A stretch of 64,000 bases of DNA from Pseudomonadota bacterium (lineage in GTDB: Bacteria > Myxococcota_A > UBA796 > GCA-2862545): NCBI GenBank assembly GCA_023954855.1, contig JAGSGY010000021.1, positions 1-64,000 on the forward strand, given 5' to 3'. Both the position numbers and the translations under genes were made by a program. Positions 18,847-50,209 of this stretch are shown here, piece by piece. Every line of letters starts with the position of its first letter. The stretch's first letter is position 1. The notes below the pieces were generated by a model. The model made no database searches, had not been told where the DNA came from, and was given only the letters and a program-made list of their open reading frames with translations.

Positions 18847-19203
18847 TGAGCTCTCCGTGCGCTTCGTTAACGCTGCATCGGACGCCGCACATCCGCCGGC
18901 GTTACGGCAAGCACATCATGTCACCCTTGACTGCAGGCATTCTTGGACTACGATCAGGGTGCTGTCCGGTGCGTGCTTGGGAGACGCTTGTGGGTCCCCC
19001 TCGTAAGAGTCCTTCGGGATTTGTGCCTCGTCGCGGAGCGCAAGCCCTTCTGAGAGGGAAGCGTAAAACGGCGAAACGAAGCCCACCTTCTGATCAGAAG
19101 GGGGTACCGGCGAAGCCCACACGGCCATGACGGCACCCCTTCCCCCCTCCATCGAGGGGGGAACCCCGCGTCAAATTCGAGGTCCGAGGTCAACGGAGGG
19201 CCG
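18847..19203. other. Intergenic region with two inverted repeats
   Basis: A 357-base stretch between divergent genes with no convincing reading frame. It contains a perfect 16-bp palindrome at 19086-19101 (CCTTCTGATCAGAAGG) and a 10-bp inverted repeat at 19140-19149/19154-19163 (TTCCCCCCTC, 4-base loop). These could be operators or RNA structures. No clear promoter or terminator is seen. Confidence 0.6.
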
Positions 19204-42857: not shown

Positions 42858-43127
42858 ATGCCCAAGCTCACCCTCTACCACCTCGATTACTGTCCATTCT
42901 GCGTGCGTGTTCGTTCCGCAGCCGCTCGCCTTGACATCGACCTCGAACTCATCGAGATCAGTGAGCAACCCGACGCCCGGGAGCACCTCCTCACCACCCT
43001 CGGAAGGTCCACCGTGCCCGTGCTCGGCATTGGCGAGGGCATGTCCGAGCGCCTCATGCCGGAAAGCCGAGACATCATCGCTTGGCTAGAGGCGAACGTC
43101 CGCGCCCTCCACGGGTTGGCCGCATGA
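42858..43127 (+). CDS. Glutaredoxin
   Basis: An 89-residue glutaredoxin with dithiol active site CPFC at residues 13-16 (LYHLDYCPFCVRVRSA), the cis-proline motif STVPVL, and a C-terminal segment RDIIAWLEANV. Glutaredoxins reduce disulfides or glutathionylated/selenylsulfide sites. GGAG precedes the ATG. It is 20 bases before the selenocysteine msrA gene. In clostridia a glutaredoxin is known to recycle a selenoprotein MsrA that lacks a resolving cysteine, so the pairing is meaningful. Confidence 0.92.
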   Translation: MPKLTLYHLDYCPFCVRVRSAAARLDIDLELIEISEQPDAREHLLTTLGRSTVPVLGIGEGMSERLMPESRDIIAWLEANVRALHGLAA

Positions 43128-43147
43128 TCCACCACCAAGGAGAAAGC

Positions 43148-43714
43148 ATGACCGACGCGCTACGCACCGCCGTCTTTGCCATGGGTTGATTCTGGGGACC
43201 CGACTCCCGGTTCGGGAGTCTCCCTGGCGTTCACCGAACTCGAGTGGGGTACGCGGGCGGCACCACGTCCCATCCCACCTACCGAAACATGGGCGACCAC
43301 AGCGAGGTCGTCGAGGTGGAGTACGACCCCGAGCAGATCACCTACACCGACTTGCTCGCCGTCTTCCGCGAGGGGCACAACCCCCTGCGCGTCAAGCGTA
43401 CCCAGTACCGGTCCGCGGTGCTCTTCCAGACCGACGAAGAACAGCGACTCGCCCGCGCAGCTCTGGAGCACTGGTCTGAAGGAGTACCCGGCGGCCTGGC
43501 GACTTCGCTCGAACCCCTAGGAACCTTCTGGCCGGCGGAGGACTATCACCAGAAATACCGCCTAAAGCGCGACTCTCCCACCGTAAAGGCGCTGGAGAAG
43601 TCGTTCGGCGGCGACTGGTCACACACCCTCGCTGCGACCAAGCTCAATGCGCATGCAGGGGGCTACCCGGTCGATCTGACCGGACTTGGCACTGCACTAA
43701 CGACCTCGACGTGA
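43148..43714 (+). CDS. msrA: Peptide methionine sulfoxide reductase MsrA, probable selenoprotein (TGA read as selenocysteine)
   Basis: The frame opens at ATG 43148, preceded by AAGGAG, and reads TAVFAMG, then TGA at 43187-43189, then FWGPDSRFGSLPGVHRTRVGYAGGT. In ordinary MsrA the TGA position is the catalytic Cys of GCFWG. The frame stays open to 43714, giving 188 residues with the selenocysteine at position 14. A strong hairpin starts 5 bases after the TGA (see SECIS entry). The protein contains no cysteine, so it lacks a resolving thiol; the adjacent glutaredoxin may do this job. MsrA repairs the S-sulfoxide form of methionine. The sequence downstream is intact, so a random nonsense mutation is less likely. 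The selenocysteine machinery is outside this window. Confidence 0.92.
43195..43224 (+). promoter_or_regulatory. SECIS-like hairpin of msrA
   Basis: Upper stem of 7 perfect pairs, 43202-43208 (GACTCCC) with 43214-43220 (GGGAGTC), and a 5-base loop GGTTC. A lower stem of 4 pairs (GGGA 43195-43198 with TCCC 43221-43224) is separated by a CCC bulge. The loop begins 20 bases after the TGA, within the spacing known for bacterial selenocysteine-insertion elements, and the loop holds the G and U residues such elements usually show. Confidence 0.8.
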
Positions 43715-43737: not shown

Positions 43738-44184
43738 ATGCTCGACTGGAAGCAAGTGATGTACCGCGCGGTGAAAGGCAACCCAACGCCCCCATCTCGA
43801 CGAGTGGAGCGGACTCTGGAAGAGTGGCGAGCCCGCCTGAGCCCCGAGCGGTTCCGAGTGACCCGCCAAGCGGGGACGGAGAGGCCGTTCAGCTCCGACA
43901 GTTGCGCCCTGTTCGAGGCAGGCATCTACCAGTGTGCCTGCTGCGAGACTCGGCTCTTCGATGCCACAACCAAGTTCGACTCGGGGACGGGTTGGCCATC
44001 ATTCTCAGAGCCGATGGACCTGGCCGCGGTCGCGTACAGAGAAGACCTCGCTCACGGCATGACGCGCATCGAGGCCAGCTGTGCCGTCTGCGACGCGCAC
44101 CTCGGTCACGTGTTCCCGGACGGTCCGGCGCCGAGCCGCTTGCGGTACTGCATCAACGCGGTGGCCCTCCATAAGGAGGCCTGA
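43738..44184 (+). CDS. msrB: Peptide methionine sulfoxide reductase MsrB
   Basis: A 148-residue zinc-containing reductase for the R-sulfoxide form of methionine. Clear motifs: zinc pairs CACC and CAVC, SGTGWPSF, HLGHVF, and the catalytic cysteine in LRYCINAVAL. Here the active site is an ordinary Cys, unlike the neighbouring MsrA. The ATG at 43738 has AAGGA 5 bases before; a GTG at 43711 that overlaps the msrA stop is an alternative. Co-transcription with glutaredoxin and msrA is likely, so the two sulfoxide stereoisomers are repaired together. Confidence 0.95.
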   Translation: MLDWKQVMYRAVKGNPTPPSRRVERTLEEWRARLSPERFRVTRQAGTERPFSSDSCALFEAGIYQCACCETRLFDATTKFDSGTGWPSFSEPMDLAAVAYREDLAHGMTRIEASCAVCDAHLGHVFPDGPAPSRLRYCINAVALHKEA

Positions 44185-44316: not shown

Positions 44317-45468
44317 ATGTCTCTACCCTTCCAGCGCTCGTTGAGTTCGTTGCGCCAGGACTCCCATCGGTCGTCGTTGACCGCGGGTGTCTTGGGGTTG
44401 GTGCTGCTGCTCGCCTGGAGTGCCTGGGCTGGGCTGAGCGAGATCGACATCCACGAGAGCAGTGCGGCCGCTCGCCTCGAGACGCTCTCACCGCTGCACC
44501 GCGTCGAGGCACCCATCGACGGTCGCGTCGTGGAGGTCTTCGTAAAGCTCGGGGATGAGGTCGAGGCGGGACAGCCCCTCGTACAGCTGGAGTCCGAACT
44601 CCAACGCTTGGCCCTCACCGAAAGCCAAGCCCGCCTGCGCGCGCTCCAAGCACAGCTCGGCCCACTACACGTGGAACTCGAGGCGGCCCAGGAGCGCCTC
44701 GGCGGTGAAGAGCAGGCAGGCTCCGGGGCCATCCGCGAAGCGCAGGCACGCCACCGCGCCGCCGAGTCACAGGCCGACATTGCCGAAGAGCGCTCACGAA
44801 CCGTCGAACGACTCGTGCCTGCCGGGGGCGCGACCCGGGCAGACCGGTCGGTGGCTTCAAGCGAGGCCGCGCGAACGCTCTCAGAGGCTGAGGCAGCGAC
44901 CCACGCCATCAAGAGGCTGCGCTGGGAGTCCCTGGTGCAGGCCGCCGACGGTCGTTCGCGCGTTGAGACGATTCGCCGGGAGATCCTCCGGGTCGAGGGC
45001 GAAGTCGAGCTCGCAACGGTCCACGTCGAGCGCCTGCAGAGCGAACTGGACCGCCGAGAAATCGTCGCGCCCGTCGCCGGTCGCATCGCCGAGATCAGCG
45101 CACTCTCGAGCGGCCGCTACGCTTCGGTAGGAACCCACCTGCTGAGCGTGCTGCCGGGCGGAGAGCTCAAGGTCGTCGCCCAGTTCTCCCCCGGGCAGGC
45201 CCTCGGCCGCCTTCACAGCGGTCAGTCCGGGCAGATGCGACTGGATGGCTTTCCCTGGACCCGCTTCGGCACGCTCGACACGCGAGTGATGCGCGTCGCG
45301 GATGAGTCCACCGAGGCGGGTGTTCGCGTCGAACTCGAGCTCACGGATGCGGACGGATTCCCCGCCAAGCTCGAGCATGGTCTGCCCGGAAGAGTCGACA
45401 TTGTCGTCGACCGCATCACCCCCTTCGAGTTGATGCTGCGCGGCGCCGGGCAATGGATGGACGGCTGA
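44317..45468 (+). CDS. HlyD-type membrane-fusion protein of a peptide exporter
   Basis: A 383-residue periplasmic adaptor. One membrane helix near residues 20-40 (SLTAGVLGLVLLLAWSAWAGL) is followed by a lipoyl-like half (RVEAPIDGRVVEVFVKLGDEVEAGQPLVQLES split around a hairpin), a long coiled coil (about 95-240), and the second lipoyl half REIVAPVAGRIAEI, with a beta-barrel domain after it. This is the pattern of the NHLM/bacteriocin-export HlyD family. Its stop codon falls at the start of the C39-ABC gene (overlap or 2-base gap, depending on that gene's start), so the operon is tight. No partner outer-membrane channel is present. Confidence 0.9.
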   Translation: MSLPFQRSLSSLRQDSHRSSLTAGVLGLVLLLAWSAWAGLSEIDIHESSAAARLETLSPLHRVEAPIDGRVVEVFVKLGDEVEAGQPLVQLESELQRLALTESQARLRALQAQLGPLHVELEAAQERLGGEEQAGSGAIREAQARHRAAESQADIAEERSRTVERLVPAGGATRADRSVASSEAARTLSEAEAATHAIKRLRWESLVQAADGRSRVETIRREILRVEGEVELATVHVERLQSELDRREIVAPVAGRIAEISALSSGRYASVGTHLLSVLPGGELKVVAQFSPGQALGRLHSGQSGQMRLDGFPWTRFGTLDTRVMRVADESTEAGVRVELELTDADGFPAKLEHGLPGRVDIVVDRITPFELMLRGAGQWMDG

Positions 45469-45470
45469 CG

Positions 45471-48095
45471 ATGCCGGCTACTCCGCAGCGCGCATTTCTC
45501 ATTCCGGAGGTGGTCCAGACCTCGGCGATGGACTGCGGCCCAGCAGCGCTCAAGGCCCTCCTCGAGGGTTTCGGCGTATCCGCAAGCTATGGCCGCCTGC
45601 GCGAGGCCTGCCAGACTCAGGTCGACGGCACATCGATTGACGCCCTCGAAGACCTAGCGGTCATGCTTGGCCTGGACGCCGAACAAGTCATGGTTCCCCG
45701 AGACCACGTTCTCGCGCCCGGCTCGGAGGTTCTTCCGGCCATCGCCATCGTCAAGCAGCCGACGGGCCTCACACACTTTCTCGTGCTCTGGCGTCGCCAC
45801 GGGCCGTTCGTACAGGTCATGGACCCCGCTCAAGGAAGACGCTGGGTTCGCGCGGAGACGATCGAGGGCCAGCTCTATGTGCACGAGATGCCCGTCCCCG
45901 AGGATGCCTTCAGGGATTACGCCGGCTCAGAGAGCTTTGCCGGCCCCCTGATGCGGCGCCTGGGCGCCCTCGGCGCGTCGCACAGCACTCAACAAGAGTG
46001 GCTGACGGCGTCGGCTGCGGACACCACTTGGGAGACGTTCGCGAGACTCGATGCCGTGGTCCGCATGGTCCAGTCCCTGGTGACGAGTCGGGCCGTCTCC
46101 AAAGGAAGCGAGGCCGTTCATCTGGTGAGCCAGTTCGCGGAGATCGCCAAGACCGACCCGAGCATCATTCCAAGTGAGTACTGGACCGCCTTCGCTCCAG
46201 ACGGCCCCAACGTCCAACTACGAGGCGCAGTCCTCGTTCAAGTCCATGGCGTCGACCGAGCGAAGACCCCGGCCGACCTCCCTCAGGAACTCGCCGCAGC
46301 GCTCGCCGAACCCCCTGCCCGGCCCGGGGCGCTACTGCTGCAGAAGCTTCGACAGGACGGGTTGCTCGCTCCGGCCTTCGTCGCCGTGGCGTTGGCCTCA
46401 AGCGCGCTGGGGGTCCTTGCCGAGGCGCTCGTGTTTCGGAGCGCCATCGAGTTCAGCAGCCTGCTGCGCCTTCCTGAGCAGCGCCTCTGGACAGGCGCCG
46501 CGCTGGGAAGCCTCCTCGTCATCCTCGCCTTCCTTCAGCATCCCGTGAATGCCACCGCACTTCGCATGGGTCGTCAGCTCGAAGGCCGGATGCGCCTGGC
46601 CTTTCTACGCAAGATTCCGCGGCTAGCCGACCGCTACTTCCACAGCCGCCTCACCAGCGACATGGCCCAGCGCGCCCATAGTTTGCACGTGATGCGCGTG
46701 TTGCCCTCGCTAGGGCAGAGCCTGGTGAGCTCGGTGTTCACCCTGCTCGCGACCTGTCTAGGGGTCATCTGGCTCGATCCCCGCAACATCCTCTCGGTCC
46801 TGCTCGTCGCCGCACTCTCGGTCGCCGTTCCTCTGCTGCTCCAGCCCATGCTCAACGAGCGAGACATGCGGGTCCAGACCCTCTTCTCGACGCTGACCCA
46901 GTACTACCTCGACTCCTTGCTGGGCCTGATCCCCTTGCGTGCACACAGCGCGCAGCTCGCGATGCGTCGTGAGCATGAGGGCCACCTGGTCGAGTGGGAG
47001 CACGCATCCATGGGGCTGCTCGGCGTCATGGTCAAGGCCGAAGCCCTGACTGCGGGGCTGGGAGCGATACTCACGGTGTGGTTGCTCTGGGGCTACTTGG
47101 CCGCGGGCGGAGCCATCTCTGGCGCCCTTCTCCTCGTGTATTGGGCGCTGCGGATCCCCGCACTCGGCTCGAGCGTCGCCCGGGCCGCTCGGCAGTACCC
47201 ACAGATGCGCAACGTCGCGCTCCGCCTGATGGAGCCACTGAGCGCCCCAGAAGTGCAGGCTGGCACCGATGCTCCCGAACCTGGCGAGGGTCCCGTCGCC
47301 CTGAGCTTCGAGCGGGTCTCGGTACTCGCAGGCGGGCAGGCGCTGCTCACGGATCTCGACCTGGAGATCGAGCCCGGCAGTCGTGTGGGCATCGTCGGCG
47401 CCTCAGGCGCCGGAAAGTCGACCCTCGTGGGGTTGCTGCTCGGTTGGCATGAGGCGGCGGCGGGCCGCATTCTGGTCGACGGCGAAGTGCTCTCGCCCTC
47501 CCGCCTGGAGACGCTGAGACGAGAGACCGCCTGGGTCGATCCAGCCGTTCAGCTCTGGAACCGCTCCTTGCTTCACAACCTGCGCTACGGCAACGACACG
47601 GGTGTCGCTCCGATCGCGGGGACCCTCGACGAAGCCGAGCTACTGCCGCTGCTAGAGACGCTCCCTGGAGGGCTCTCCACCCCGCTAGGCGAAGGTGGCG
47701 CCCTCGTTTCCGGAGGCGAGGGCCAGCGCGTGCGTCTTGCTCGCGCGATGATGCGACCAAGCCCACGGCTGACGATCTTGGATGAGCCTTTCCGAGGTTT
47801 GGATCGCGCCGCCCGTCAACGCCTGCTCTCCGCCGCGATGAAGCGCTTCCAGGACAGCACCCTACTGCTGGTCACTCACGATGTGTCGCAGACGCAGAAG
47901 CTGGACCGCGTCCTCGTCATTGACGACGGTCGGCTAGTCCAGGACGGCCCTCCCGACGAGTTGCTGGCCCAGACCGACTCGACCTACCGCCGCCTCATGG
48001 AGGCGGACGCCACACTCAAAGATGCGCTCTGGACCGAAGAGGGCTTTCGACGCGTTCGGGTCGTCGGCGGCGCGGTCGAGCAGGGCGCCCCATGA
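45471..48095 (+). CDS. C39 peptidase-containing ABC exporter (NHLM-type, leader-cleaving)
   Basis: An 874-residue exporter. The N-terminal C39 cysteine protease has oxyanion Gln and catalytic Cys in VVQTSAMDCGPAAL, His in GLTHFLVLW and Asp in FVQVMDPAQG, all present. It cleaves the leader from a peptide substrate at a double-glycine-type site. A long insertion follows, then about six membrane helices (about 310-570). The ABC domain has Walker A GASGAGKST, Q-loop region, signature VSGGEGQRVRLARAM, Walker B LTILDEPF and H-loop LVTHD. The ATG at 45471 is 2 bases after the HlyD stop; an ATG at 45453 is possible. It overlaps the next ABC gene by 4 bases. Confidence 0.93.
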   Translation: MPATPQRAFLIPEVVQTSAMDCGPAALKALLEGFGVSASYGRLREACQTQVDGTSIDALEDLAVMLGLDAEQVMVPRDHVLAPGSEVLPAIAIVKQPTGLTHFLVLWRRHGPFVQVMDPAQGRRWVRAETIEGQLYVHEMPVPEDAFRDYAGSESFAGPLMRRLGALGASHSTQQEWLTASAADTTWETFARLDAVVRMVQSLVTSRAVSKGSEAVHLVSQFAEIAKTDPSIIPSEYWTAFAPDGPNVQLRGAVLVQVHGVDRAKTPADLPQELAAALAEPPARPGALLLQKLRQDGLLAPAFVAVALASSALGVLAEALVFRSAIEFSSLLRLPEQRLWTGAALGSLLVILAFLQHPVNATALRMGRQLEGRMRLAFLRKIPRLADRYFHSRLTSDMAQRAHSLHVMRVLPSLGQSLVSSVFTLLATCLGVIWLDPRNILSVLLVAALSVAVPLLLQPMLNERDMRVQTLFSTLTQYYLDSLLGLIPLRAHSAQLAMRREHEGHLVEWEHASMGLLGVMVKAEALTAGLGAILTVWLLWGYLAAGGAISGALLLVYWALRIPALGSSVARAARQYPQMRNVALRLMEPLSAPEVQAGTDAPEPGEGPVALSFERVSVLAGGQALLTDLDLEIEPGSRVGIVGASGAGKSTLVGLLLGWHEAAAGRILVDGEVLSPSRLETLRRETAWVDPAVQLWNRSLLHNLRYGNDTGVAPIAGTLDEAELLPLLETLPGGLSTPLGEGGALVSGGEGQRVRLARAMMRPSPRLTILDEPFRGLDRAARQRLLSAAMKRFQDSTLLLVTHDVSQTQKLDRVLVIDDGRLVQDGPPDELLAQTDSTYRRLMEADATLKDALWTEEGFRRVRVVGGAVEQGAP

Positions 48096-50209
48096 GTGAG
48101 GCACTGCGCAAGATTGCCTGGCCAGGAACTCGATTGGGGGAGGCCCTCAGCGCCCTCGGAAAGGCCGGGAAACTCGACGCGCTGCAGGGGCTCGACAATC
48201 CTTCCCCGGAGTTGCCCACACAGGCGCGCTTTCATTGGGCGTCTGAGGCCGCAACCTCGATGGGAGTGGAGCCCGAGGAACTGCGATGCTCGTTGCGGGA
48301 ACTTGAGACCACCCTCCCGCTACTCGGCCCGGCGTTGGTCCCCCTCTCGCTTCCGGGCGAAGAGACCCGCTTCCTCGCCATTCTCGAGAGCCGAGGAAAG
48401 CTCACGTTCATCGGCCCAGACGGCACCCTGCATCGGCGACCTTCTGCGTCGGTCGCACACGCCCTCAGCGCTCCGATCTACCGGGCGCTTGCGCAGCGAG
48501 GCGTTCCTTCGATGCTCGAGGCGGCCGGAATCCCGGAGCCACGGCAGCACCAGGTGCTTCAGACCCTCGCGAAGGGACGGCATGGTGAGGCGTCCGTCGG
48601 CCCCTTCCTGACCCTCCGACCCCACCCGGCCTCCAGCCTCTCGGTGCTCTCCAAGCATGCCGGACTGCCCCGTCTCGGTGCGCTGGTACTCGCGACACAC
48701 GTGCTCTCCACCCTGGCAGCGCTGTTCGCTTGGTACCTGATTGGACGGGGCGCGCTCTCGGGCCGCTGGGAGACGGGCTGGCTGGTGGCGTGGTCTCTCG
48801 CCCTTCTGTCGGCGGTACCTCTGACCGTCACCGCAAACCACGCCCAGGGCAAGTTTGCGGTTCGTGCGGGACGCTTGATGAAGCAGCGCGTGCTGCACGG
48901 GCTCCTGAACCTCCCCCCCGACGCCACACGCGAGGACGGAACCGGCAAGCACCTGAGTCGAATCCTCGAGTCTTCGGCCATCGAGGCGCTCTTCATTGGG
49001 GGCTCGCTCGCCTCGGTGCTCTCCGTCGTCGACATGGTCACCGCTGCCATGGTCCTGTCGATGGGGGTTGCAAGCCAGGTCGTGCTTGCGGCTCTCGTCG
49101 TCTACGTCGGACTCGCCGCCGCACTCACGCGACGCCTCTATGTTCGGCGGCAGACCTGGACGCGCCAGCGCTTGGCCATGACTCATGACCTCGTAGAGCG
49201 CATGGTGGGTCACCGAACCCGCCTGGCACAACAGGACCCGAGCCGTTGGCATGACGACGAAGACGCCATGCTCGAGTCGTATTTCGAGAAGAGCCAAGAC
49301 CTCGACGCCACCTCCGTTCAGCTCAGCCTCGTGTCTCGAGGGTGGCTTGTGCTTGGCGCCCTCGCCGTGGCACCCGCCTTCATCGCTGGCGCCGACGCCG
49401 CGACCATGGGCGTCACTATCGGAGGCATCCTGCTCGGCTCGCAGGCTCTCGCCGCACTGTCCGGGGGCCTAGGCCAGCTCACCGCGGCTGCGGTGGCCTG
49501 GGAACAGGTCAAGCCCTTGATGGACGCGGCAAACGTAGAGAGCCCAAAGGGCGAGCTCGAGCTGCGACTCGATGCGGCTCCGACCGACTCCACCCGCCCC
49601 ATCCTCTCGGCAAGCGAGCTCTCCTACCGATACGAGGGCCAAGACCGAAGCGCGCTGAAAGCTTGCACTCTCGCCGTCAGCCACGGGGACCGCATCTTGA
49701 TCGAGGGCCCCTCTGGTAGTGGGAAGTCGACACTTGCGATGGTTCTCGGTGGACTGCGCGAGGCAAGTAGTGGCCTGCTCCTCGTGGACGGGCTGGACCT
49801 GAACAGCCTCGGGTCGGACGAGTGGCGGCGAAGGGTCGTCACCGTTCCGCAGTTTCACCAGAACCACGTGTTCTCCGGCACACTCGCTTTCAACGCCCTG
49901 ATGGGCCGCGAGTGGCCTCCCTCGAATGAAGACCTCGCGGAGCTCCACGAGATTTGCATGGAGCTCGGCCTGGGGCCCGTCCTCGAGCGCATGCCAGCAC
50001 AGCTCCATCAGACTGTCGGCGAACAGGGGTGGCAGCTGAGCCACGGGGAGCGGTCCCGGCTGTTCCTCGCCCGCGCTCTGGCGATGAAGACCGCGAGGGT
50101 TTGGATTCTCGACGAGAGCTTCGCCGCGCTCGACCCGATCACGCTCGACCGCTGTGTGCGTGCGGTGGTGCGCCGGGCCCCAGCCCTCGTGGTCATCGCG
50201 CACCCATAA
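48092..50209 (+). CDS. Second ABC exporter subunit, NHLM-type, ending at the H-loop
   Basis: A 705-residue membrane ABC protein. The first ~180 residues are a soluble domain of the NHLM type without the C39 catalytic residues. Five or six membrane helices lie at about 190-465. The nucleotide-binding domain has Walker A GPSGSGKST, signature LSHGERSRLFLARAL (His replaces the second Gly of the usual SGG) and Walker B VWILDESF. The protein stops at VVIAHP, straight after the H-loop His, so the usual C-terminal 30-50 residues are missing. It probably pairs with the C39 exporter as a heterodimer. A hairpin terminator follows 4 bases later. Confidence 0.9.
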   Translation: MSEALRKIAWPGTRLGEALSALGKAGKLDALQGLDNPSPELPTQARFHWASEAATSMGVEPEELRCSLRELETTLPLLGPALVPLSLPGEETRFLAILESRGKLTFIGPDGTLHRRPSASVAHALSAPIYRALAQRGVPSMLEAAGIPEPRQHQVLQTLAKGRHGEASVGPFLTLRPHPASSLSVLSKHAGLPRLGALVLATHVLSTLAALFAWYLIGRGALSGRWETGWLVAWSLALLSAVPLTVTANHAQGKFAVRAGRLMKQRVLHGLLNLPPDATREDGTGKHLSRILESSAIEALFIGGSLASVLSVVDMVTAAMVLSMGVASQVVLAALVVYVGLAAALTRRLYVRRQTWTRQRLAMTHDLVERMVGHRTRLAQQDPSRWHDDEDAMLESYFEKSQDLDATSVQLSLVSRGWLVLGALAVAPAFIAGADAATMGVTIGGILLGSQALAALSGGLGQLTAAAVAWEQVKPLMDAANVESPKGELELRLDAAPTDSTRPILSASELSYRYEGQDRSALKACTLAVSHGDRILIEGPSGSGKSTLAMVLGGLREASSGLLLVDGLDLNSLGSDEWRRRVVTVPQFHQNHVFSGTLAFNALMGREWPPSNEDLAELHEICMELGLGPVLERMPAQLHQTVGEQGWQLSHGERSRLFLARALAMKTARVWILDESFAALDPITLDRCVRAVVRRAPALVVIAHP

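Follow-up and report, generated by a model that had tools for sequence, protein, structure and literature searches.

Among the listed families of prokaryotic selenoproteins is an MsrA with selenocysteine (Sec) in place of the catalytic cysteine and the motif GUFWG (PMC13188914); the family also appears in a review of the prokaryotic selenoproteome (PMC9312934). MBI4965933.1 is an example accession from this review literature, and nine Sec MsrA sequences are described from the Global Ocean Sampling data (PMC2398784). The passages on the family in these three sources do not name Myxococcota, and the open-licence literature yielded no relevant report on selenoproteins in this phylum, which is weak evidence given that limit. 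Structures are available for the enzyme CoMsrA from Clostridium sp. OhILAs (Alkaliphilus (Clostridium) oremlandii; PDB 4lwj, 4lwk, 4lwl, 4lwm, 4u66 and 7c13). CoMsrA contains Sec and no Cys, is about 20-fold more active with Sec than with Cys, and is reduced by glutaredoxin (Grx) but not by Trx (PMC4479559). Its helical domain is essential (PMC4333827), and its reductant is a host Sec-glutaredoxin according to the title of reference 85 in PMC13188914.

We analysed a window (the whole stretch of DNA under study) of 64,000 nucleotides from a draft assembly of 178 contigs. With a probability of roughly 0.94, we conclude that 43148–43714 on the forward strand is an intact selenoprotein gene, in which SelB- and SECIS-dependent insertion of Sec would give a 1-Sec MsrA that is recycled by an outside thiol, probably of the Grx type. 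With TGA translated as Sec (U), the frame encodes 188 amino acids. Its sole internal stop is the TGA at 43187–43189, which corresponds to residue 14, lies at the catalytic position (G-U-FWG) and aligns with the conserved Cys of homologues. The N-terminal part of the product reads MTDALRTAVFAMG-U-FWGPDSRFG..., and the frame holds no cysteine codon. The match to Pfam PMSR (PF01625; 133.6 bits, cut-off 23.7) spans residues 7–141 and thus both sides of the TGA; TIGR00401 scores 115 bits (cut-off 108.1), and the active-site residues Tyr, Glu, Gln-Tyr, His and Tyr are all kept. A PHROGs search gave a weak unnamed match and nothing more. The ATG is preceded by the ribosome-binding site AAGGAG (43137–43142, + strand, 5 nt 5' of the start). 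The first-pass annotation had described an MsrA frame broken only by TGA at the catalytic position of the GCFWG motif, with MsrA similarity on either side and a ribosome site in front, and all three points hold.

That annotation had also read the TGA as selenocysteine, and a search of the genome for the decoding genes supports this. SelA (506.5 bits), SelB (300.7 bits, 629 aa), SelD (253.1 bits) and tRNA-Sec (61.9 bits, gathering score 47) are all present over curated cut-offs, and the tRNA has a UCA anticodon loop and an 8-bp acceptor stem. Among 58 related genomes, 48 have a SelA that exceeds the cut-off; judged by this gene content, Sec use is the rule in the order and a maintained trait. 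Three AhpC-TSA/thioredoxin-like genes (L147, L148 and L149 on contigs G000:C65, C144 and C95, respectively) carry TGA at the first position of their CxxC motifs (FW-U-TSC, FW-U-PSC and YS-U-PYC) in otherwise open frames, and are probable further selenoproteins of this genome. No TGA was found in its molybdopterin oxidoreductases. The SelD gene (L018, G000:C50) sits in an 859-aa open frame with Cys at the catalytic position; SelD probably forms the C-terminal part of a fusion protein that also has an oxidoreductase domain. The genome also encodes 44 MYXO-CTERM domains over the cut-off, and none reach it in 14 control genomes; by this measure the host is probably a myxobacterium.

Bacterial SECIS elements are stem-loops directly 3' of the TGA with a small apical loop that contains a G (PMC1088965), and this is the arrangement found at 43202–43220 (+). 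Here, 12 nt 3' of the TGA, a 7-bp stem (GACTCCC/GGGAGTC) closes the loop GGTTC, the same hairpin that had been noticed on first reading. The loop contains the conserved G, and G24 is invariant in the alignment of TGA versions. When synonymous codons were drawn for the same peptide according to local codon usage, all seven pairs arose by chance in 0.28% of 20,000 draws; when synonymous codons were re-drawn in 2,000 trials, again for the same peptide, the folding energy was equal or lower in 0.6%. Conservation gives the decisive evidence: at least six of the seven pairs form in register in all 10 distinct TGA versions and in none of the 82 Cys versions (mean 6.4 versus 2.1 pairs), a comparison that has to allow for the GPDxRFG motif, since the TGA proteins have it in common and it fixes part of the stem. 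Even so, the closest Cys proteins with this motif (L054, L056, L062 and L067) form no more than 2 to 5 pairs, and the maximum among the 82 Cys versions of the MsrA loci fetched is 5 of 7. The covariation score is 0.356 against 0.140 for shuffled alignments, with none of 500 shuffles as high, and in the 11-sequence alignment 91.4% of cells pair, compared with 27–56% when the partner strand is slid. Two pairs show compensatory changes on both sides (for example, T-A here and G-C in G020). This covariation indicates selection on the hairpin. A partial gene in G050 has a stem identical to that at 43202–43220.

An open reading frame starting from GTG 43244 is what automatic annotation would give (shortening of the gene had been anticipated), and it could be taken to mean that translation restarts there to yield an N-truncated protein, or that the TGA is read through by a near-cognate tRNA or as some other residue. 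None of the GCFWG motif would be left in the restart product, which could not be an MsrA. As for read-through, the genome has the full Sec machinery, and only TGA versions carry the hairpin. We consider this pair of explanations very improbable, and regard the gene as one that an automatic pipeline would truncate or mark as broken.

The same codon is TGA in 11 further msrA loci from Myxococcota, Planctomycetota, Acidobacteriota and Bacillota. Six are in other Myxococcota genomes (G020, G028, G050, G061, G247 and G363); outside this phylum, TGA was found in a Pirellulaceae MAG, two Halobacteroidaceae MAGs, Bacillus suaedae and an Acidobacteriota MAG. Relatives had been proposed as a check for an unrelated TGA at the site, and what they carry is TGA at the same codon together with the covarying hairpin. 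A search with a DNA signature of Sec-msrA matched 6 of 379 Myxococcota genomes; the partial gene of G050 makes a seventh, and the reversed control pattern had no match in the same set. Sec-MsrA is patchy in Myxococcota.

In the tree (from which a motif filter removed L057, L137 and L139), the TGA versions and two Cys versions from Bacillota form one group with support of 100/99, and MsrAs with Cys from the same order branch apart from it. The pattern fits an old exchange between phyla with occasional switches between Sec and Cys. The two Cys-type members inside the clade could also be taken as a hint that the TGA is a sequencing or assembly error in an ordinary 1-Cys MsrA; a single base change turns TGC or TGT into TGA, and the assembly is a draft. 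However, TGA recurs at this one codon in 11 other loci, each assembled independently, and random error is therefore unlikely; hairpin pairing is, moreover, confined to the TGA versions. We assign very little probability to such an error.

Inactivation of msrA by a nonsense mutation would leave the cell with an MsrA, since the genome has a second, intact msrA of the Cys type (G000:C39:39938-40372). A pseudogene would not be expected to look like this one, in which the remaining frame is open and all catalytic residues are kept. The TGA is conserved across phyla, TAA or TAG was not seen at the catalytic codon in any MsrA compared, and the hairpin covaries in a manner that indicates selection. 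It is thus highly unlikely that the gene is dead.

The gene lies between two others on the same strand. Upstream, 42858–43127 encodes an 89-aa glutaredoxin-like protein with a CPFC motif (PF00462, 48.5 bits; GST_N_3, 50.6 bits), which scores below every curated NCBIfam cut-off and whose gene ends 20 nt 5' of msrA. Downstream, 43738–44184 encodes an all-Cys MsrB with the catalytic motif RYCIN (TIGR00357, 160.6 bits, cut-off 113; PF01641, 154.3 bits); it starts about 23 nt 3' of msrA, with an alternative open GTG start at 43711. The genes may be co-transcribed. An msrB directly 3' of Sec-msrA is also found in G363, which belongs to another family (L137 5584-6030). Further 3' of msrB, the region 44317–50209 (+) encodes an HlyD-like adaptor together with a pair of ABC exporters. 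The first exporter has a C39 peptidase domain, and the set resembles NHLP bacteriocin export. Elsewhere in the window, a 6S RNA is located at 18956–19140 (+; 67.7 bits, gathering score 46.4).

These observations are consistent with the following mechanism. SelA and SelD would make Sec-tRNA-Sec, the hairpin 3' of the TGA would recruit SelB with this tRNA, and Sec would be placed at the catalytic position. The result would be a 1-Sec MsrA without Cys, as in C. oremlandii, whose selenolate would attack methionine-S-sulfoxide with release of methionine. As the protein has no resolving Cys, neither an internal disulfide nor a selenylsulfide could form, and an outside thiol would be needed to reduce the oxidised Sec. 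By analogy with CoMsrA, the adjacent upstream glutaredoxin-like protein is the natural candidate for this role and could be tested directly as a reductant. By a similarity comparison, no such neighbour was found at ten other Sec-msrA loci, several of which are short or at contig ends; since it was found at this locus only, the Grx step is the weaker part of the mechanism. The R form of the sulfoxide would be repaired by the MsrB encoded just downstream. It is possible, albeit rather unlikely, that grx–msrA(Sec)–msrB is a self-contained Myxococcota repair operon, in which a Cys-type GST/Grx-like protein was adapted to regenerate a Cys-free selenoenzyme and msrA spread patchily between phyla together with its own SECIS.

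The AF2 model of the product has a pLDDT of 90.9 and shows helices at residues 143–159 and 161–170, within a shortened C-terminal helical region of about residues 143–185. The seven best PDB fold matches all contain the C. oremlandii Sec-MsrA, with TM scores of 0.84–0.87 as compared with about 0.7 for other MsrAs; the match is to full-length CoMsrA, whose folds rank ahead because the C-terminal helices match too. The nearest PDB entries by sequence are likewise all CoMsrA, over residues 4–172, and the comparison with selenoprotein MsrA that had been suggested at the outset thus singles out the same protein twice.

Since Sec-MsrA is an already listed family, the kind itself is not new, and the gene at 43148–43714, which by its sequence has all testable features, is an additional member. 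The first-pass annotation named clostridia and some algae as known sources of such proteins; to these are added the nine Global Ocean Sampling sequences and several further phyla. The loci described here extend the range of Sec-MsrA to Myxococcota, Planctomycetota, Acidobacteriota and Bacillus, and provide a clean natural comparison between Sec and Cys versions, in which presence or absence of the SECIS hairpin matches the residue.

As in the reviewed family, Sec would replace the catalytic Cys in a GUFWG/H motif. The catalytic domain and its residues are those of the 1-Cys, 2-Cys and 3-Cys MsrAs (PF01625/TIGR00401), which differ in having a Cys codon, neither hairpin nor helical domain, and a separate branch in the tree. 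The closest likeness is to CoMsrA: both proteins have a GUFWG motif (with a predicted Sec in the present one) followed by GPDxxFG, lack any Cys besides, and share the active-site residues and a C-terminal helical domain. They differ in sequence (about 40% identity) and in the length of the helical domain, which is shorter here (188 versus 209 residues in all), and, unlike CoMsrA, the present protein comes from a Myxococcota host in which its gene lies between those for a Cys-type Grx-like protein and MsrB.
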